Assembly (NCBI RefSeq): GCF_013033965.1
Contig: NZ_WQFE01000010.1
Coordinates: forward strand, 1-64,000
Length of the DNA stretch: 64,000 nucleotides
Direction: 5' to 3'
Origin: Ruegeria atlantica
GTDB taxonomy: Bacteria > Pseudomonadota > Alphaproteobacteria > Rhodobacterales > Rhodobacteraceae
Both the position numbers and the translations under genes were made by a program. Below are positions 30,217 to 37,490 of this stretch, one piece after another; the first letter of the stretch is position 1, and the number at the start of each line of letters is the position of its first letter. Below the pieces are notes generated by a model. It was not told the DNA's origin. It did no database searches and worked only from the letters and a program-made list of their open reading frames with translations.

Positions 30217-31824
30217 CTATTCAGCCGGGACCGCGACGGTCAGGCTGGCCTCTTTGGCCGGCGCTTTCCGCACAGTCATCCACAGGTTGTAGCACATGAT
30301 CACGGCGCCAGCGACGAACATGACGCCACCCAAAGCACGCACCACATACATCGGGAACTTGGCAGCCACGGTGTCGGCGAACGAGTTCACCAGGAAGCCG
30401 TTAGCATCCACTTCACGCCACATCAGGCCTTCCATGATACCGGTGACCCACATCGACGCGGCGTAAAGCACGATGCCGATGGTGGCGAGCCAGAAGTGCC
30501 AGCTGACCATCTGCAGTGAGTACAGACGTTCACGCTTCCACAGAACAGGCACCAGGAAGTACAGCGCACCAAAGGTGATCATACCGTTCCAGCCCAGCGC
30601 GCCCGAGTGCACGTGACCAATGGTCCAGTCGGTGTAGTGGGACAGGCTGTTGACCGCGCGGATCGACATCATCGGACCTTCAAAGGTCGACATGCCGTAG
30701 AAGCCAACCGAGATCACCATCATCCGGATCACCGGGTCGGTGCGCAGCTTGTCCCAGGCACCCGACAGGGTCATCAGACCGTTGATCATACCACCCCAGG
30801 ACGGCATCCACAGGATGATCGAGAACACCATGCCCAGCGTCGAGGCCCAATCAGGCAGCGCGGTATAGTGCAAATGGTGCGGACCGGCCCAGATATACAG
30901 GAAGATCAGCGCCCAGAAGTGGATGATCGACAGCTTGTAGGAAAACACCGGACGCTCGGCCTGTTTCGGGATGAAGTAATACATCATTCCAAGGAAGCCT
31001 GCGGTCAGGAAGAAGCCCACAGCATTGTGGCCGTACCACCACTGGATCATGGCGTCTTGCACACCCGACCAGACGATGACCGATTTCGAACCCCAGATGC
31101 TGACCGGTATGGTCATGTTGTTGACCAGGTGCAGCATGGCAACGGTGACGATGAACGCCAGATAGAACCAGTTTGCCACATAGATGTGGGGCTCTTTCCG
31201 CCGGACGATCGTGCCCAGGAACACGGCCAGATAAGCCACCCAGACAATGGTCAGCCACAGGTCAACATACCATTCAGGTTCCGCGTACTCCTTAGACTGA
31301 GTTCCACCCAGCACGTAACCGGTTGCGGCCAGAACGATGAAGAGCTGATAGCCCCAGAACACGAACCACGCCAGATTGCCGCCCCACAGGCGCGCGGCGC
31401 TTGTACGCTGAACCACATAGAACGAGGTCGCAATCAAGGCGTTACCGCCAAAGGCAAAGATTACAGCCGAGGTGTGCAGCGGACGCAAACGGCCAAAGTT
31501 GAGATATCCCTGCGCCCACTCGAAGTTCAGCGCCGGGAAAGCCAACTGAAAGGCGATAAAAGTACCCGCGATGAACCCGACCACACCCCAAAATGCGGTT
31601 GCGATCACGCCATAGCGGATCACGTCATCCATGTATTCGGCCGAACGGTCGACGAGGATATCTGGCTCATCCGTGTTTCTCAGCGTCCAGATGAACAACC
31701 CACCGGCGATCAGCATCACCAGAACTGCGTGCACCTGATACGCCAAATCGCGTGCATAATTGGTTCCGATCGCCGCGAATATCGCGATCAGACCAAGCAC
31801 GATCAGCTTGATGTAATTTGACAT
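30217..31824 (-). CDS. ccoN: cbb3 cytochrome c oxidase catalytic subunit CcoN
   Basis: 535 residues from the ATG at 31824 ([20 protein letters not shown]), with AGGGA about 7 nt upstream; the frame is open 44 codons further, but that extension is not membrane-like and covers the promoter region. Twelve predicted spans and the histidine ligands of the low-spin heme and the b3-CuB centre are visible ([37 protein letters not shown]). It reduces O2 at high affinity and pumps protons. An FNR box lies upstream. Confidence 0.97.
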
Positions 31825-31917
31825 ATTGCGTCCCTTTGCCATGCCCCGCGCGATTCTTATTTGTCGCGGAACCCTTTTGACTGGCCGTTGTTTTGTCGGA
31901 CAGCGGCCAATCTCGCT

Positions 31918-31931
31918 TTGATCTGTATCAA
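31918..31931. promoter_or_regulatory. FNR/FnrL operator between ccoN and usp
   Basis: TTGATCTGTATCAA is an exact match to the FNR consensus TTGAT-N4-ATCAA. It lies in the divergent spacer, 94 nt from the ccoN start and 89 nt from the usp start, and could serve both directions. Confidence 0.88.
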
Positions 31932-32019
31932 GACAATAGCCCGAAATCTGTGACAATCCTAAGTCTTAGACTGAGTTGCATGGCCGCATGTCACTTAGCC
32001 CCGAAGACAAGAGGTCAAA

Positions 32020-33223: not shown

Positions 33224-33964
33224 TTAAATCAGAAAGCCACCATCCGAGTCGTCGCCGGCCTCATCCATCAAACGCCGCATATCGGGGATCGTCACGTGGC
33301 GTTTGCCTTCCAGTTCGATGACCCCCTCTTTCTTGAGGGCCGAAACCTGGCGGCTTACGGTTTCAAGAGTCAATCCCAGATAGTCTGCCATCGCCTCACG
33401 CGTCAGCGGAAGATCAAACACGATCGGGCCGGGTTTTGCTTTAGGCGCAATCGAAGCGTCCCGCCGGGCAATGATCGACAGCAGACTTGCAATCTTCTCG
33501 CGCGCGGTCTTGCGCCCCAAAACCAACATCCATTCACGCGCCGCGTCCAGCTCATCCAGCGTCATCTGCAGCAGACGGTGGGCGATATGCGGGGTGCTGC
33601 CCATCAGGGCTTCGAACGGTTTCTTGCGAAAACAGCACATGACCAAATCGGTTGTGGCCAACACGTCATAGGGCGCTGTTTCCCGACCGGGTCGTCCAAC
33701 AAAATCGCTGGGCAAAAGCAGGCCAACCATTTGCGTTCGACCATCTTCCATCGTTTGGGTCAATGACGCGATTCCCGACACGACAGAGCCTACAAAATTC
33801 ATCTGATCGCCCGACCAGATGATCGTCTGTCCCGCCTCGAATGTCCGGTAGTACTTAATGCCCTCAAGCTCTTCCAACTCATCGGCATCGCAATGCGCAC
33901 AAACGGCGCGGTGCCGAATGGGACAATCGGAACAGTTGGTATGGTCAAATTGGGCTTTTAGCAT
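33224..33964 (-). CDS. fnrL: Oxygen-responsive regulator FnrL
   Basis: 246 residues from the ATG at 33964; a GTG five codons upstream is also possible. Cysteines at 11, 14 and 22 (CSDCPIRHRAVC) and a central MCCF provide ligands for an oxygen-labile [4Fe-4S] cluster. A cyclic-nucleotide-like beta-roll is followed by a C-terminal Crp-type HTH (LTREAMADYLGLTLETVSRQVSALK) whose ETVSR recognition helix matches FNR. Activates microaerobic genes. Divergent from hemN with an FNR-like box between, implying autoregulation. Confidence 0.95.
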   Translation of the reverse strand: MLKAQFDHTNCSDCPIRHRAVCAHCDADELEELEGIKYYRTFEAGQTIIWSGDQMNFVGSVVSGIASLTQTMEDGRTQMVGLLLPSDFVGRPGRETAPYDVLATTDLVMCCFRKKPFEALMGSTPHIAHRLLQMTLDELDAAREWMLVLGRKTAREKIASLLSIIARRDASIAPKAKPGPIVFDLPLTREAMADYLGLTLETVSRQVSALKKEGVIELEGKRHVTIPDMRRLMDEAGDDSDGGFLI

Positions 33965-33979
33965 CGTTCGCGCTTTCAC

Positions 33980-33993
33980 TTGATCTCAGTCAA
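33980..33993. promoter_or_regulatory. FNR-type operator between fnrL and hemN
   Basis: TTGAT-CTCA-GTCAA matches the consensus except one base in the right half. Its centre is about 42 nt before the hemN ATG and just before the fnrL start region, so it may activate hemN and repress or tune fnrL. Confidence 0.72.
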
Positions 33994-34028: not shown

Positions 34029-35384
34029 ATGATAGTGAAACCGCAATTGTCAAAGCTTGGACTATTTGACGCGAAAGTCCCGCGTTACACAAGCTATCCA
34101 ACCGCCCCGCATTTCAGTAACGACGTGGGACCAAGTCTTTATGCTGACTGGATTTCCGGGATAAAACCGGGCAGTTCCGTGTCGCTGTATATCCACGTGC
34201 CGTTCTGCCGCAGGCTATGTTGGTTCTGCGCCTGTCGGACACAAGGAACCCAAACCGACAACCCTGTGATCGCCTATGTGGACGTGCTGAAGGCCGAGCT
34301 GGACCTGCTTGCCGCGCAACTGCCCGAGGGTGTGACCCTGTCGCGCCTGCATTGGGGCGGCGGCACGCCCACGCTGCTGAATCCCGATTTGATGCGCGAA
34401 CTGGCCGCCCGCATTCTTGAGGTTGTTCCACTGGGACCGGATGCGGAATTCTCGGTCGAGATCGACCCGAACGAGATTGACGAGGATCGGCTGGACGCGT
34501 TGGCCGAGGCTGGCATGAACCGCGCGTCTATTGGCGTTCAGGATTTCGACGACGAAATCCAGAAAACCATCGGGCGCATCCAAAGTTACGACACCACCCG
34601 CAAGGCCGTCGACATGATCCGCGCGCGTGGGATATCCAGCCTGAACGCGGATATTCTGTACGGCCTGCCGCACCAGACCAAGTCACGGATGACCGAAAGC
34701 GTTCAGAAACTTCTGTCGCTCAGCCCGGACCGGGTGGCGCTGTACGGCTATGCCCATGTGCCGTGGATGGCCAAACGGCAGCAGCTGATCCCAACGGATG
34801 CGCTGCCCACACCCGAAGACCGCCTGGACCTGTTCGACACAGCCCGGCGTCTGTTTCTGTGGGACAAATATGCAGAGATCGGGATTGACCACTTTGCCAC
34901 GCAGGATGACGGGCTGACGCATGCGCTGAACGCAGGGCGGCTTAAGCGGAATTTCCAGGGATATACTGACGATCAGGCCGAAGTTCTGATTGGTGTCGGT
35001 GCAAGCTCGATCTCGCGGTTCCCGCAAGGGTATGCTCAAAACGCACCTGCGACGTCGGCCCACACCAAGGCGATCCGCGATGGGCGGTTCTCAATATCCC
35101 GTGGGCACTTGTTTAAAGGGCAGGACGTCCTCCGCGCGCGATTGATCGAAGCTTTGATGTGCGACTTCCGCATCGATACGGCCGAGATTCTGCGCGACCA
35201 CAACGTCACCGCGGCGGAATTGCAGGACATGTACAAGACCGCAAACGCAACGTTTGACGGCTTACTGAGCGTCTCAGAAGACGGTCTGTTCATCCCACCC
35301 GAGGCGCGTGCGCTGACCCGAATGATCGCACGCAGCTTTGATGCCTATGACCTGAGCAAGGCGGGACACAGCTCGGCTATCTGA
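34029..35384 (+). CDS. hemN: Oxygen-independent coproporphyrinogen III oxidase
   Basis: 451 residues. The radical-SAM cluster motif C60-x3-C64-x2-C67 (CRRLCWFCAC) and the SAM-binding HWGGGTPTLL segment are present, with a C-terminal HemN domain. It converts coproporphyrinogen III to protoporphyrinogen IX without oxygen, supplying heme for the cbb3 oxidase under low oxygen. The second YTSYPTAPHFS block is typical of true HemN and not HemW. FNR-type box immediately upstream. Confidence 0.95.
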   Translation: MIVKPQLSKLGLFDAKVPRYTSYPTAPHFSNDVGPSLYADWISGIKPGSSVSLYIHVPFCRRLCWFCACRTQGTQTDNPVIAYVDVLKAELDLLAAQLPEGVTLSRLHWGGGTPTLLNPDLMRELAARILEVVPLGPDAEFSVEIDPNEIDEDRLDALAEAGMNRASIGVQDFDDEIQKTIGRIQSYDTTRKAVDMIRARGISSLNADILYGLPHQTKSRMTESVQKLLSLSPDRVALYGYAHVPWMAKRQQLIPTDALPTPEDRLDLFDTARRLFLWDKYAEIGIDHFATQDDGLTHALNAGRLKRNFQGYTDDQAEVLIGVGASSISRFPQGYAQNAPATSAHTKAIRDGRFSISRGHLFKGQDVLRARLIEALMCDFRIDTAEILRDHNVTAAELQDMYKTANATFDGLLSVSEDGLFIPPEARALTRMIARSFDAYDLSKAGHSSAI

Positions 35385-35561
35385 TACAGCAACAGGACAA
35401 GACTTGACGCGGAGGGTGGGTTTTCCCCACACTTACAGGGCGGGTTGAGATCCGCCCCGCGCCTGAGGCAGGCAGAGTACCAGACAGTATGTGCCGACGC
35501 ATTCGCGCTCGACCACCCTTTTCGTGCAGCCGTTCTGCAACTTGAAAGAGGGACTGCATCC

Positions 35562-37490
35562 ATGCGCGTTTTTTCCGTCCTCGGCCCCAGCCAATCGGGC
35601 AAAACAACTCTGGTCGAGGCCATTAGCCGCCTTGATGGCCGGCCAACCACATTCGACGTATCCGGAACCGTGCATTTGCACGGTTTTTCTTATCTGGGCG
35701 AACCCTGGTGTGCCATTGACGTGAATGGCGGTAGTGACACGTTGGCCTATGTCGGCCCTGCTATGGCCATCTCAGACGCCGCCGTTGTCGTCGTGCCGCC
35801 CGACCCGGACGCCGCCGTGCTGTGCGCCCCGTATCTGCGTCTGGTCGAAGAGGCAGGTATCCCCTGCTTTTTGTTCATCAACCGTATGGACAGCCCCAAC
35901 GGTCGAATCCGCGATATCATCGCCGCCTTGCAGACCTACTGTACGCAACACATCGCCTTGCGGCAGGTTCCAATTCGCGATGGTGAGACGATCATAGGCG
36001 CAGTCGACCTGATCTCTGAACGTGCATGGAAGTATCAGGAAGGACAGCCCTCGGCCCTAATCGAGCTTCCTCAGTCCGTCGAAGACCGCGAGCAGGAAGC
36101 CCGGACCGAATTGCTGGAAACTCTTTCGGACTTCGATGATCACCTGCTCGAGCAACTAATCGAAGACAAACAACCGCCAAGCGCAGAAATCTATGATCTG
36201 GCCGCGCAGGTCTTGCAAAATCACCAGTTGATCCCGGCCTGCCTTGGATCTGCAAGCCACGGGAACGGGCTGACCCGCCTGATGAAGGCTCTGCGTCACG
36301 AAGCCCCAGAGTTCGACATCGCTGCTGGGCGGGACGAGGCGGCCGAAGACGCACGCGCGATTGCCGGGTTTGCCGACGTCAAAAAGCACATCGGAAAGAT
36401 CGTCGTTCTGCGTGGTCTGGGCAAGGGCGTCAAAGCGCACGAAGCATTGGGCGGGGAAACGGTTGGCAACCTGACGACATTAGATGCCAAAACCCAAATT
36501 CCGGAACTGGAAGCCGGGCAAATTGGACTGGCCGTCAAATCGGACCACCTGAATCCCGGCAACATTTATGACGGCGCCGGGTCCACACCGTTACCTGGAT
36601 GGGCCGAATCCCACCCGGCGGCCCATCGGCAAGTTGTATCGCCTGCGCATGAGCGTGACGATGTACGCCTGTCCAACGCCCTGACCCGCCTGGTCGAGAT
36701 CGACCCCGGTCTGCACTTTGAGCAGGATGAACTGAGTGGCCATGCAATTTTGGGATCGCAGGGGCCGCAGCATATGCGGCGGGTCAGTGCCAAGCTAGCC
36801 GAAGACTTCGGGATCGAGATCGAAACGGAGACCGTGGAGACGGCGTATCGCGAGACCATCCGCACACCTATCGAACACCGCCATCGCCATCGAAAGCAAT
36901 CCGGCGGCGCGGGGCAATTTGCCGATGTCGTGATCTCGATCGCACCGACTCCGCGCGGATCAGGCTTCGAGTTCGAGGAAATCGTCAAAGGGGGCGCCGT
37001 GCCCAAAAACTACATCCCGTCTGTCGAACACGGGGCCAAGGATGCGCTGGCACAGGGGCCCGAAGGGTTCCCGGTTGTCGATGTCAAAGTCACCCTGAGC
37101 GACGGTAAGCATCACAACGTAGACAGTTCAGACTATGCGTTCCGCACAGCGGGCAAGAACGCGGTGCGAGAAGCACTGCCGCAGGCAAAACCCGTGGTCC
37201 TGCAACCCATCTTAAACGCCGAAATCCACCTGCCCTCGGATTTCGTGGGCGATCTGGTGCCGACAATCAGTTCCTTGCAGGGTCAGGTGCTGGGCTTTGA
37301 AGGCAACCCGAACGCGTCCGGGTGGGAAATATTCAACGCCCAACTGCCTGCGGTGGCCGAGGACGAGTTGCATAGAACCCTCGCCAGCGCGACACGCGGC
37401 ACCGGGTGGGTGAAACTGCAATTCGATCACTATGAAGAATTGCGCGGGCCGGTTCCAAAATCTGCCTCGCGCGAAGCTGCCAACGCATGA
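35562..37490 (+). CDS. EF-G-like protein with degenerate GTPase domain
   Basis: 642 residues from the ATG at 35562 (GAGGGA upstream; the open frame extends further but without similarity). The P-loop GPSQSGKT is at residues 8-15, but the switch I region is very short, no RGITI is seen, DTPGH is replaced by IDVNGG, and NKMD is NRMD. Domains II-V are well kept, including EHRHRHRKQSGGAGQF and the domain IV loop HHNVDSSDYAF. It is probably a ribosome-associated paralogue with altered or slow GTP use. It follows hemN by 177 nt and ends at a strong terminator. Function unknown. Confidence 0.85.
   Translation: MRVFSVLGPSQSGKTTLVEAISRLDGRPTTFDVSGTVHLHGFSYLGEPWCAIDVNGGSDTLAYVGPAMAISDAAVVVVPPDPDAAVLCAPYLRLVEEAGIPCFLFINRMDSPNGRIRDIIAALQTYCTQHIALRQVPIRDGETIIGAVDLISERAWKYQEGQPSALIELPQSVEDREQEARTELLETLSDFDDHLLEQLIEDKQPPSAEIYDLAAQVLQNHQLIPACLGSASHGNGLTRLMKALRHEAPEFDIAAGRDEAAEDARAIAGFADVKKHIGKIVVLRGLGKGVKAHEALGGETVGNLTTLDAKTQIPELEAGQIGLAVKSDHLNPGNIYDGAGSTPLPGWAESHPAAHRQVVSPAHERDDVRLSNALTRLVEIDPGLHFEQDELSGHAILGSQGPQHMRRVSAKLAEDFGIEIETETVETAYRETIRTPIEHRHRHRKQSGGAGQFADVVISIAPTPRGSGFEFEEIVKGGAVPKNYIPSVEHGAKDALAQGPEGFPVVDVKVTLSDGKHHNVDSSDYAFRTAGKNAVREALPQAKPVVLQPILNAEIHLPSDFVGDLVPTISSLQGQVLGFEGNPNASGWEIFNAQLPAVAEDELHRTLASATRGTGWVKLQFDHYEELRGPVPKSASREAANA

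Follow-up and report, generated by a model that had tools for sequence, protein, structure and literature searches.

The window analyzed here is a stretch of 64,000 nucleotides from Ruegeria atlantica (contig NZ_WQFE01000010.1, positions 1 to 64,000). Its features around an EF-G paralog gene are collected in Table 1. The gene, which begins with ATG and encodes 642 amino acids, lies next to hemN, with fnrL on the far side of hemN, and an ordinary EF-G (fusA, 705 amino acids) is encoded in the same genome, at the start of the window. The original prediction, made from the sequence alone, had placed an EF-G paralog at this position; ORF, domains and family score all agree with it.

Table 1. Coordinates of features in and around the EF-G paralog gene; positions are those of the window, residue numbers those of the paralog.
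Feature	Position	Strand	Evidence or note
fnrL (neighbor, outside the system)	33224..33979	-	NF045989, 457 bits
FNR-type box TTGATCTCAGTCAA, upstream of hemN	33980..33993		
hemN (neighbor, outside the system)	34029..35384	+	TIGR00538, 409 bits
Promoter-like block TTGACG-N18-CACACT, between hemN and the paralog start	35404..35433	+	conserved in Ruegeria and relatives
Conserved leader element GAGGCAGG	35465..35472	+	
Conserved leader element TCGTGCAG...CTGCAAC...AGAGGG (Shine-Dalgarno)	35522..35552	+	
EF-G paralog CDS, degenerate-switch EFG II type, domains I-V	35562..37490 (ATG to end of stop)	+	NF009379, Pfam matches
P-loop (G1) GPSQSGKT, residues 8-15, intact	35583..35606	+	GxxxxGK[ST] in 87/87 clade members
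Shortened switch I region, residues 16-52	35607..35717	+	without RGITI, without equivalent Ser
Intragenic terminator-like element, codons 36-44	35664..35692	+	conservation, synonymous entropy, RNA fold
G3 DVNGG, residues 53-57, still DxxG but lacking the Pro and the catalytic His	35718..35732	+	
G4 NRMD, residues 107-110, kept	35880..35891	+	N[KR]xD in 86/87 clade members
G5 GSA, residues 229-231	36246..36254	+	
Domain IV loop I KQSGGAGQF, residues 445-453, basic RHRHR before it	36894..36920	+	identical in 83/87
Domain IV loop II HHNVDSSD, residues 517-524	37110..37133	+	H.VDSSD near-invariant

The protein matches the Pfam domains GTP_EFTU, EFG_III, EFG_IV and EFG_C. Its NCBIfam assignment is to NF009379 (PRK12740.1-3, elongation factor G paralog), with 771.3 bits over profile positions 8-667 of 674 and a cut-off of 513 bits that ordinary alphaproteobacterial EF-Gs can also slightly exceed (up to 547 bits). 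For TIGR00484 (EF-G) the score is 274 bits against a cut-off of 659. A TetM-like identity was ruled out by family scores (NF012153, tetracycline ribosomal protection, 168 bits vs. a cut-off of 775), and an mtEFG2-like identity by sequence scores (98 bits for mtEFG2 [7l20] vs. 261 bits for S. aureus EF-G). The nearest loci are those of Ruegeria spp., with 96% protein identity; a literature search for the gene in Ruegeria pomeroyi returned nothing usable.

The GTPase domain had been described as keeping its P-loop while switch I is shortened, and both statements hold: the P-loop is intact, and the spacing from the P-loop Lys to the G3 Asp is 38 residues (38-39 in the clade), compared with 57 in full-length alphaproteobacterial EFG II proteins and 68 in the organism’s own EF-G. 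Two further changes had been listed as signs of degradation. DTPGH has indeed been altered, with loss of the Pro and the catalytic His, but the resulting DVNG still fits DxxG; likewise NKMD has become NRMD, but this is not decay, as NRMD also occurs in full-length paralogs. Loss of the catalytic His is not special to this protein either, because the residue is absent from 32 of 32 full-length alphaproteobacterial EFG II proteins, in which G3 reads DCPGS, DSPGS, DTPGS or DCPGN; DxxGH occurs in none of these 32 and in none of the 87 clade members. DxPG is present in 6 of the 87. In the full-length alphaproteobacterial members, G2 has the RxMSV pattern of the alphaproteobacterial/cyanobacterial EFG II sub-group described by Margus et al. 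2011 (PMC3150367).

Outside the GTPase domain, the earlier claim that domains III-V and the tip loop are conserved stands for the tip loops of domain IV and holds less well for domain III, in which GELH has become GPQH. Conservation is also lower in domain II, where deletions have occurred. The second His of domain IV loop II corresponds to E. coli EF-G H583. The GELH change (Glu to Pro; residues 400-405, approximately 36759-36776) is clade-wide, appearing as GPQH, GPMH or GPLH, and lies near the switch side.

A maximum-likelihood tree was built from 59 proteins, in which EFG II is represented by alphaproteobacterial sequences. The 30 short-switch proteins, all from Rhodobacteraceae, are recovered as one clade (SH-aLRT 100) on a long stem branch (0.78), and this clade is sister to 19 full-length alphaproteobacterial EFG II proteins, with EFG I far off (support 100). 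The paralog thus falls, as a derived branch, within the alphaproteobacterial EFG II group that Margus et al. 2011 defined. The refuting case named at the outset, a usual EF-G2 that has lost its motifs to the same degree, applies only in part: the type is EF-G2, but more of the motifs are gone than in ordinary alphaproteobacterial members of that type.

As in EFG II (Margus et al. 2011), RGITI is missing from G2, and G1, G4 and G5 are kept; the RGITI switch I and DTPGH of EFG I are both absent. The Ser/Thr at the Mg-binding place of G2 is gone because switch I has been cut by ~19 residues, and G3 is DxxGG, unlike the DxPG of the EFG II alphaproteobacteria/cyanobacteria sub-subgroup (PMC3150367; NF009379). 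Since the G2 Ser and DxPG are missing, we treat the paralog as an offshoot derived from EFG II and not as a plain member. Thirteen signature positions (Tables 1-2 of PMC3150367) were mapped via T. thermophilus EF-G1, the domain IV-V columns being read by hand. Eight of these are kept (19G and 28L of the P-loop, 379K, 224D, 272L, 499K, 543E, 633G), one is conservative (498R) and four are lost (position 64 and the Thr316, Gly360 and Val258 signatures). The paralog also resembles the sub-subgroup in having diverged domains I-III and a conserved domain IV.

Among 240 alphaproteobacterial genomes, approximately 85 have a clear NF009379 member; a score gap from 606 to 547 bits separates these from lower-scoring proteins that all seem to be ordinary EF-Gs. 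In the genomes covered, the short-switch branch is confined to Rhodobacteraceae. Within the 149 family genomes, 28 full-length matches (45-100% identity) belong to the short-switch branch, which one further fragment (G385) resembles, and 5 genomes carry the full-length switch type; about 33 carry either form, and none carries both EFG II forms together. On an EF-G species tree the distribution of the paralog is patchy, with at least 9 changes, for which loss and transfer are inseparable by the tree. In three early branches (L120, L121 and L122), a short switch I occurs with a G3 that is still DCPG (DCPGS or DCPGA), while the remaining members have DxAGG, DVDGG, DVNGG or similar. Because the early branches combine the short switch I with DCPG, shortening of switch I would have preceded loss of the Pro, and the simplest order on the tree runs from loss of the catalytic His to the ~19-residue cut in switch I and then to loss of the Pro of DxPG in most members.

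A second feature of the gene lies at the DNA and RNA level. A palindrome, ACCGTGCA-NN-TGCACGGT, occupies positions 35667-35684 and is followed by TTTTCTTA; codons 36-43 read ACC GTG CAN NTG CAC GGT TTT TCT, so that a perfect 18-bp palindrome runs into TTTTTCTTA. The stem and T-tract are invariant in 51 Ruegeria genomes, the majority of which differ by >10% at the DNA level in this gene, and the two central loop bases vary freely, the variation including the amino-acid changes H38Q and L39V. Synonymous entropy for codons 35-43 is the lowest in the gene (mean 0.23 bits vs. a gene mean of 1.06; codon permutation test, P = 5e-5). Beyond codon 50, no comparable stretch of codons in the gene falls below 0.75, and the minimum in hemN of the same genomes is 0.40, at the hemN start. 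The T-tract is written in codons that the gene seldom uses (TCT for 8.5% of Ser, GGT for 17.5% of Gly). The RNA fold has a z of -3.4, and the hairpin is stable and has a U-tract directly after it, as intrinsic terminators do. Beyond Ruegeria, one further genus (L097) keeps the whole element; the stem is kept and the T-tract absent in Cribrihabitans (L050), and the T-tract is kept and the stem decayed in Tropicibacter-like genomes. The hairpin coincides exactly in position with the shortened switch I, of which the shortening is the older.

The simplest reading of this pattern is that the hairpin is an intragenic intrinsic terminator that would be hidden by the first translating ribosome. In coupled transcription of E. 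coli genes, the leading ribosome suppresses intrinsic terminators (PMC5021804). The E. coli elements are likewise composed of a hairpin and U-tract in a translated region, with readthrough dependent on coupling; they were predicted and then tested gene by gene, whereas the Ruegeria candidate, known from sequence alone, differs in its genus-wide invariance and free loop bases. The palindrome and T-tract within the CDS are what is new here. The main rival, possible although we favor it less than a terminator, is that a protein binds the conserved palindrome as DNA or that some other factor recognizes it in the RNA: the 18-bp palindrome is perfect and has a free center, and in Cribrihabitans the stem stands without a T-tract. 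Against this, the T-tract (TTT TCT, which are uncommon codons) varies no more than the stem in Ruegeria and lies on one side only, and no second copy of the palindrome was found in the genome at ≤1 mismatch. The same search ruled out a palindrome regulon.

In the reading that we favor (probability approximately one half), the paralog is a derived EFG II factor with a stepwise dismantled switch that serves as a non-hydrolyzing translocase and whose synthesis is gated by the hairpin. Through the P-loop, N[KR]xD and G5 the protein would still hold a guanine nucleotide, which would act as a structural cofactor and would not be hydrolyzed at a useful rate. The protein would dock at the ribosomal EF-G site and push domain IV into the decoding site, translocating slowly from binding energy alone and leaving the ribosome without hydrolysis, as does Bacteroides EF-G2. 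Its use would fall to situations in which normal EF-G or GTP is limiting, and not to low oxygen specifically. In Ruegeria, synthesis is probably gated such that transcription ends at about codon 43 when translation does not promptly follow behind RNA polymerase. Both elements could be taken further in a joint reading that we hold only tentatively, in which a translocase whose whole GTP switch has evolved away is paired with a genus-wide, translation-gated intragenic terminator. The nucleotide might then be a static cofactor, and production of the protein might be confined to times when ribosomes keep pace with RNA polymerase, two corollaries that are just as tentative.

Precedents come from several EF-G paralogs. 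Of EF-G2 in Bacteroides thetaiotaomicron (FusA2, BT2167), PMC10294740 states that it ‘enables GTP-independent translation’ and that carbon limitation induces it, and an EF-G paralog translocating without hydrolysis is cited in PMC12775393. Like our paralog as we read it, the Bacteroides protein is reported to be a hydrolysis-free paralog beside a normal EF-G; it belongs to another sub-group, and its induction by carbon limitation runs through BT4338. EF-G2 of Mycobacterium smegmatis has no detectable ribosome-dependent GTPase (PMC3832671), but is actinobacterial. EF-G2 of T. thermophilus, also an EFG II protein, is active as a ribosome-dependent GTPase (PMC3832671), which counts against the non-hydrolyzing reading. 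Snu114 of the spliceosome offers an analogy only: PMC7192624 describes this EF-2-like protein in a constant GTP-bound state, but it is eukaryotic and no ribosome factor. Two counterpoints also apply to the translocase reading, in that docking may be weak without switch I, and an EF-G that does not hydrolyze GTP might just as well act in recycling or rescue.

As a recycling factor, the paralog would act together with RRF on ribosomes that are stalled or past termination and split them, in the way of EF-G2 from mitochondria or Borrelia; translocation would not be its task, and the splitting itself would have no need of hydrolysis. We consider this unlikely, even though EF-G paralogs elsewhere divide the two tasks (PMC3832671) and the change from GELH to GPQH, together with the domain II deletions, affects the switch and the RRF side. 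The parts of domain IV that are needed for translocation (the tip loops, the His of loop II and the basic stretch) are near-invariant, and both the tree, which places the protein with alphaproteobacterial EFG II, and the weak mtEFG2 match speak against a recycling role.

A ribosome-occupying stress factor, parked in the EF-G site without turnover and acting in hibernation, rescue or the protection of idle or stalled ribosomes, is in our judgment improbable. Lost hydrolysis should slow release, as would befit a parking factor, and the ribosome-facing domain IV is strongly conserved; however, the protein has no extra hibernation-type domain, and the closest studied analog is an active translocase.

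The original prediction also pointed to low-oxygen translation as one option and to the adjacent FnrL-regulated heme gene. The neighbors are confirmed: the paralog adjoins hemN on the same strand across a 177-nt gap, family scores identify HemN and FnrL (Table 1), hemN has an FNR-type box on its upstream side, and ccoN and fnrL are close by. We nevertheless find it very improbable that the paralog serves translation at low oxygen and shares control by FnrL with hemN. The hemN/fnrL adjacency is limited to one subclade (Ruegeria-like genera), and a hemN ortholog within several kb is absent at 15 divergent clade loci and 20 full-length paralog loci. The gap contains no FNR box, the nearest being the one upstream of hemN, and the paralog has its own conserved promoter-like block (consensus CTTGACG-N17/18-CAMACT), with similar CTTGAC blocks in members that are away from hemN. 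Because the adjacency is confined to the Ruegeria-like subclade and the gene has a promoter-like block of its own, the neighborhood is no evidence for low-oxygen use. ccoN, fnrL and hemN form a typical FnrL neighborhood, into which the paralog seems to have moved. ccoN, which encodes cbb3 oxidase subunit I on the minus strand (ORF 30217-31956), has a perfect FNR-type box (TTGATCTGTATCAA, 31918-31931) at its start.

The conserved stretch at 35404-35561 consists of the promoter-like block and a 5' leader (GAGGCAGG; TCGTGCAG...TGCAA). A leader hairpin may hide the Shine-Dalgarno sequence; it is plausible in the window, and its consensus fold is almost without compensatory change. No Rfam family was found at the locus. 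A leader peptide or conserved uORF was ruled out by hand, with frame and stops shifting between species. An antiterminator in which CGUGCA of the leader would pair with the hairpin's 3' arm is not preserved in R. pomeroyi, which has UGCGCA, and is kept only as an idea.

Selection on the gene was assessed in 45 Ruegeria comparisons (pS ~0.64), which give a median dN/dS of 0.03. By domain, pN/pS is 0.062 for G, 0.079 for V, 0.092 for IV, 0.146 for II and 0.149 for III. The paralog must have a selected job, because the G domain, without switch I, is the most constrained of all; it is specialized, is under strong purifying selection and shows no decay. The central claim of the original prediction, that ribosome-contacting parts are kept and the GTP switch weakened, is borne out for a separate clade under strong purifying selection. 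A decaying, functionless duplicate, which the lost catalytic and switch residues and the patchy presence in the family (~33 of 149 genomes with either form) might bring to mind, is refuted by the dN/dS data and by a frame intact in dozens of species, and has a negligible chance of being correct.

An AlphaFold2 model was built from a 21-row alignment (pLDDT 69.5, mostly 75-90 for residues 1-100; pTM 0.57), with low overall confidence and poor domain placement, a further point against the translocase reading. The best Foldseek matches are EF-G chains, and VIA-align gives a Z of ~22 over ~475 residues; whole-chain TM-scores are low and the rmsd large because domain placement is uncertain in the model. 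The model thus indicates only an EF-G fold.

Whether translocation needs GTP hydrolysis or only the binding of EF-G is a long-standing question. The natural series of strongly selected paralogs with losses of the His, switch I and the G3 Pro provides test proteins beyond Bacteroides EF-G2. The hairpin, if the terminator reading is true, would be a rare example of a terminator that is under selection, depends on coupling and lies inside a coding sequence, and it would control a translation factor. The paralog itself stands at the extreme of a family of unusual EF-Gs that already has a name (NF009379). A third form of alphaproteobacterial EFG II was also encountered, in family f33 of the class (L164, from genome G033, and G162). 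L164 has a full-length switch I, with QISGGLTL at G2 and DCPGA at G3, and the NF009379 scores of both are as low as that of the paralog in the window.
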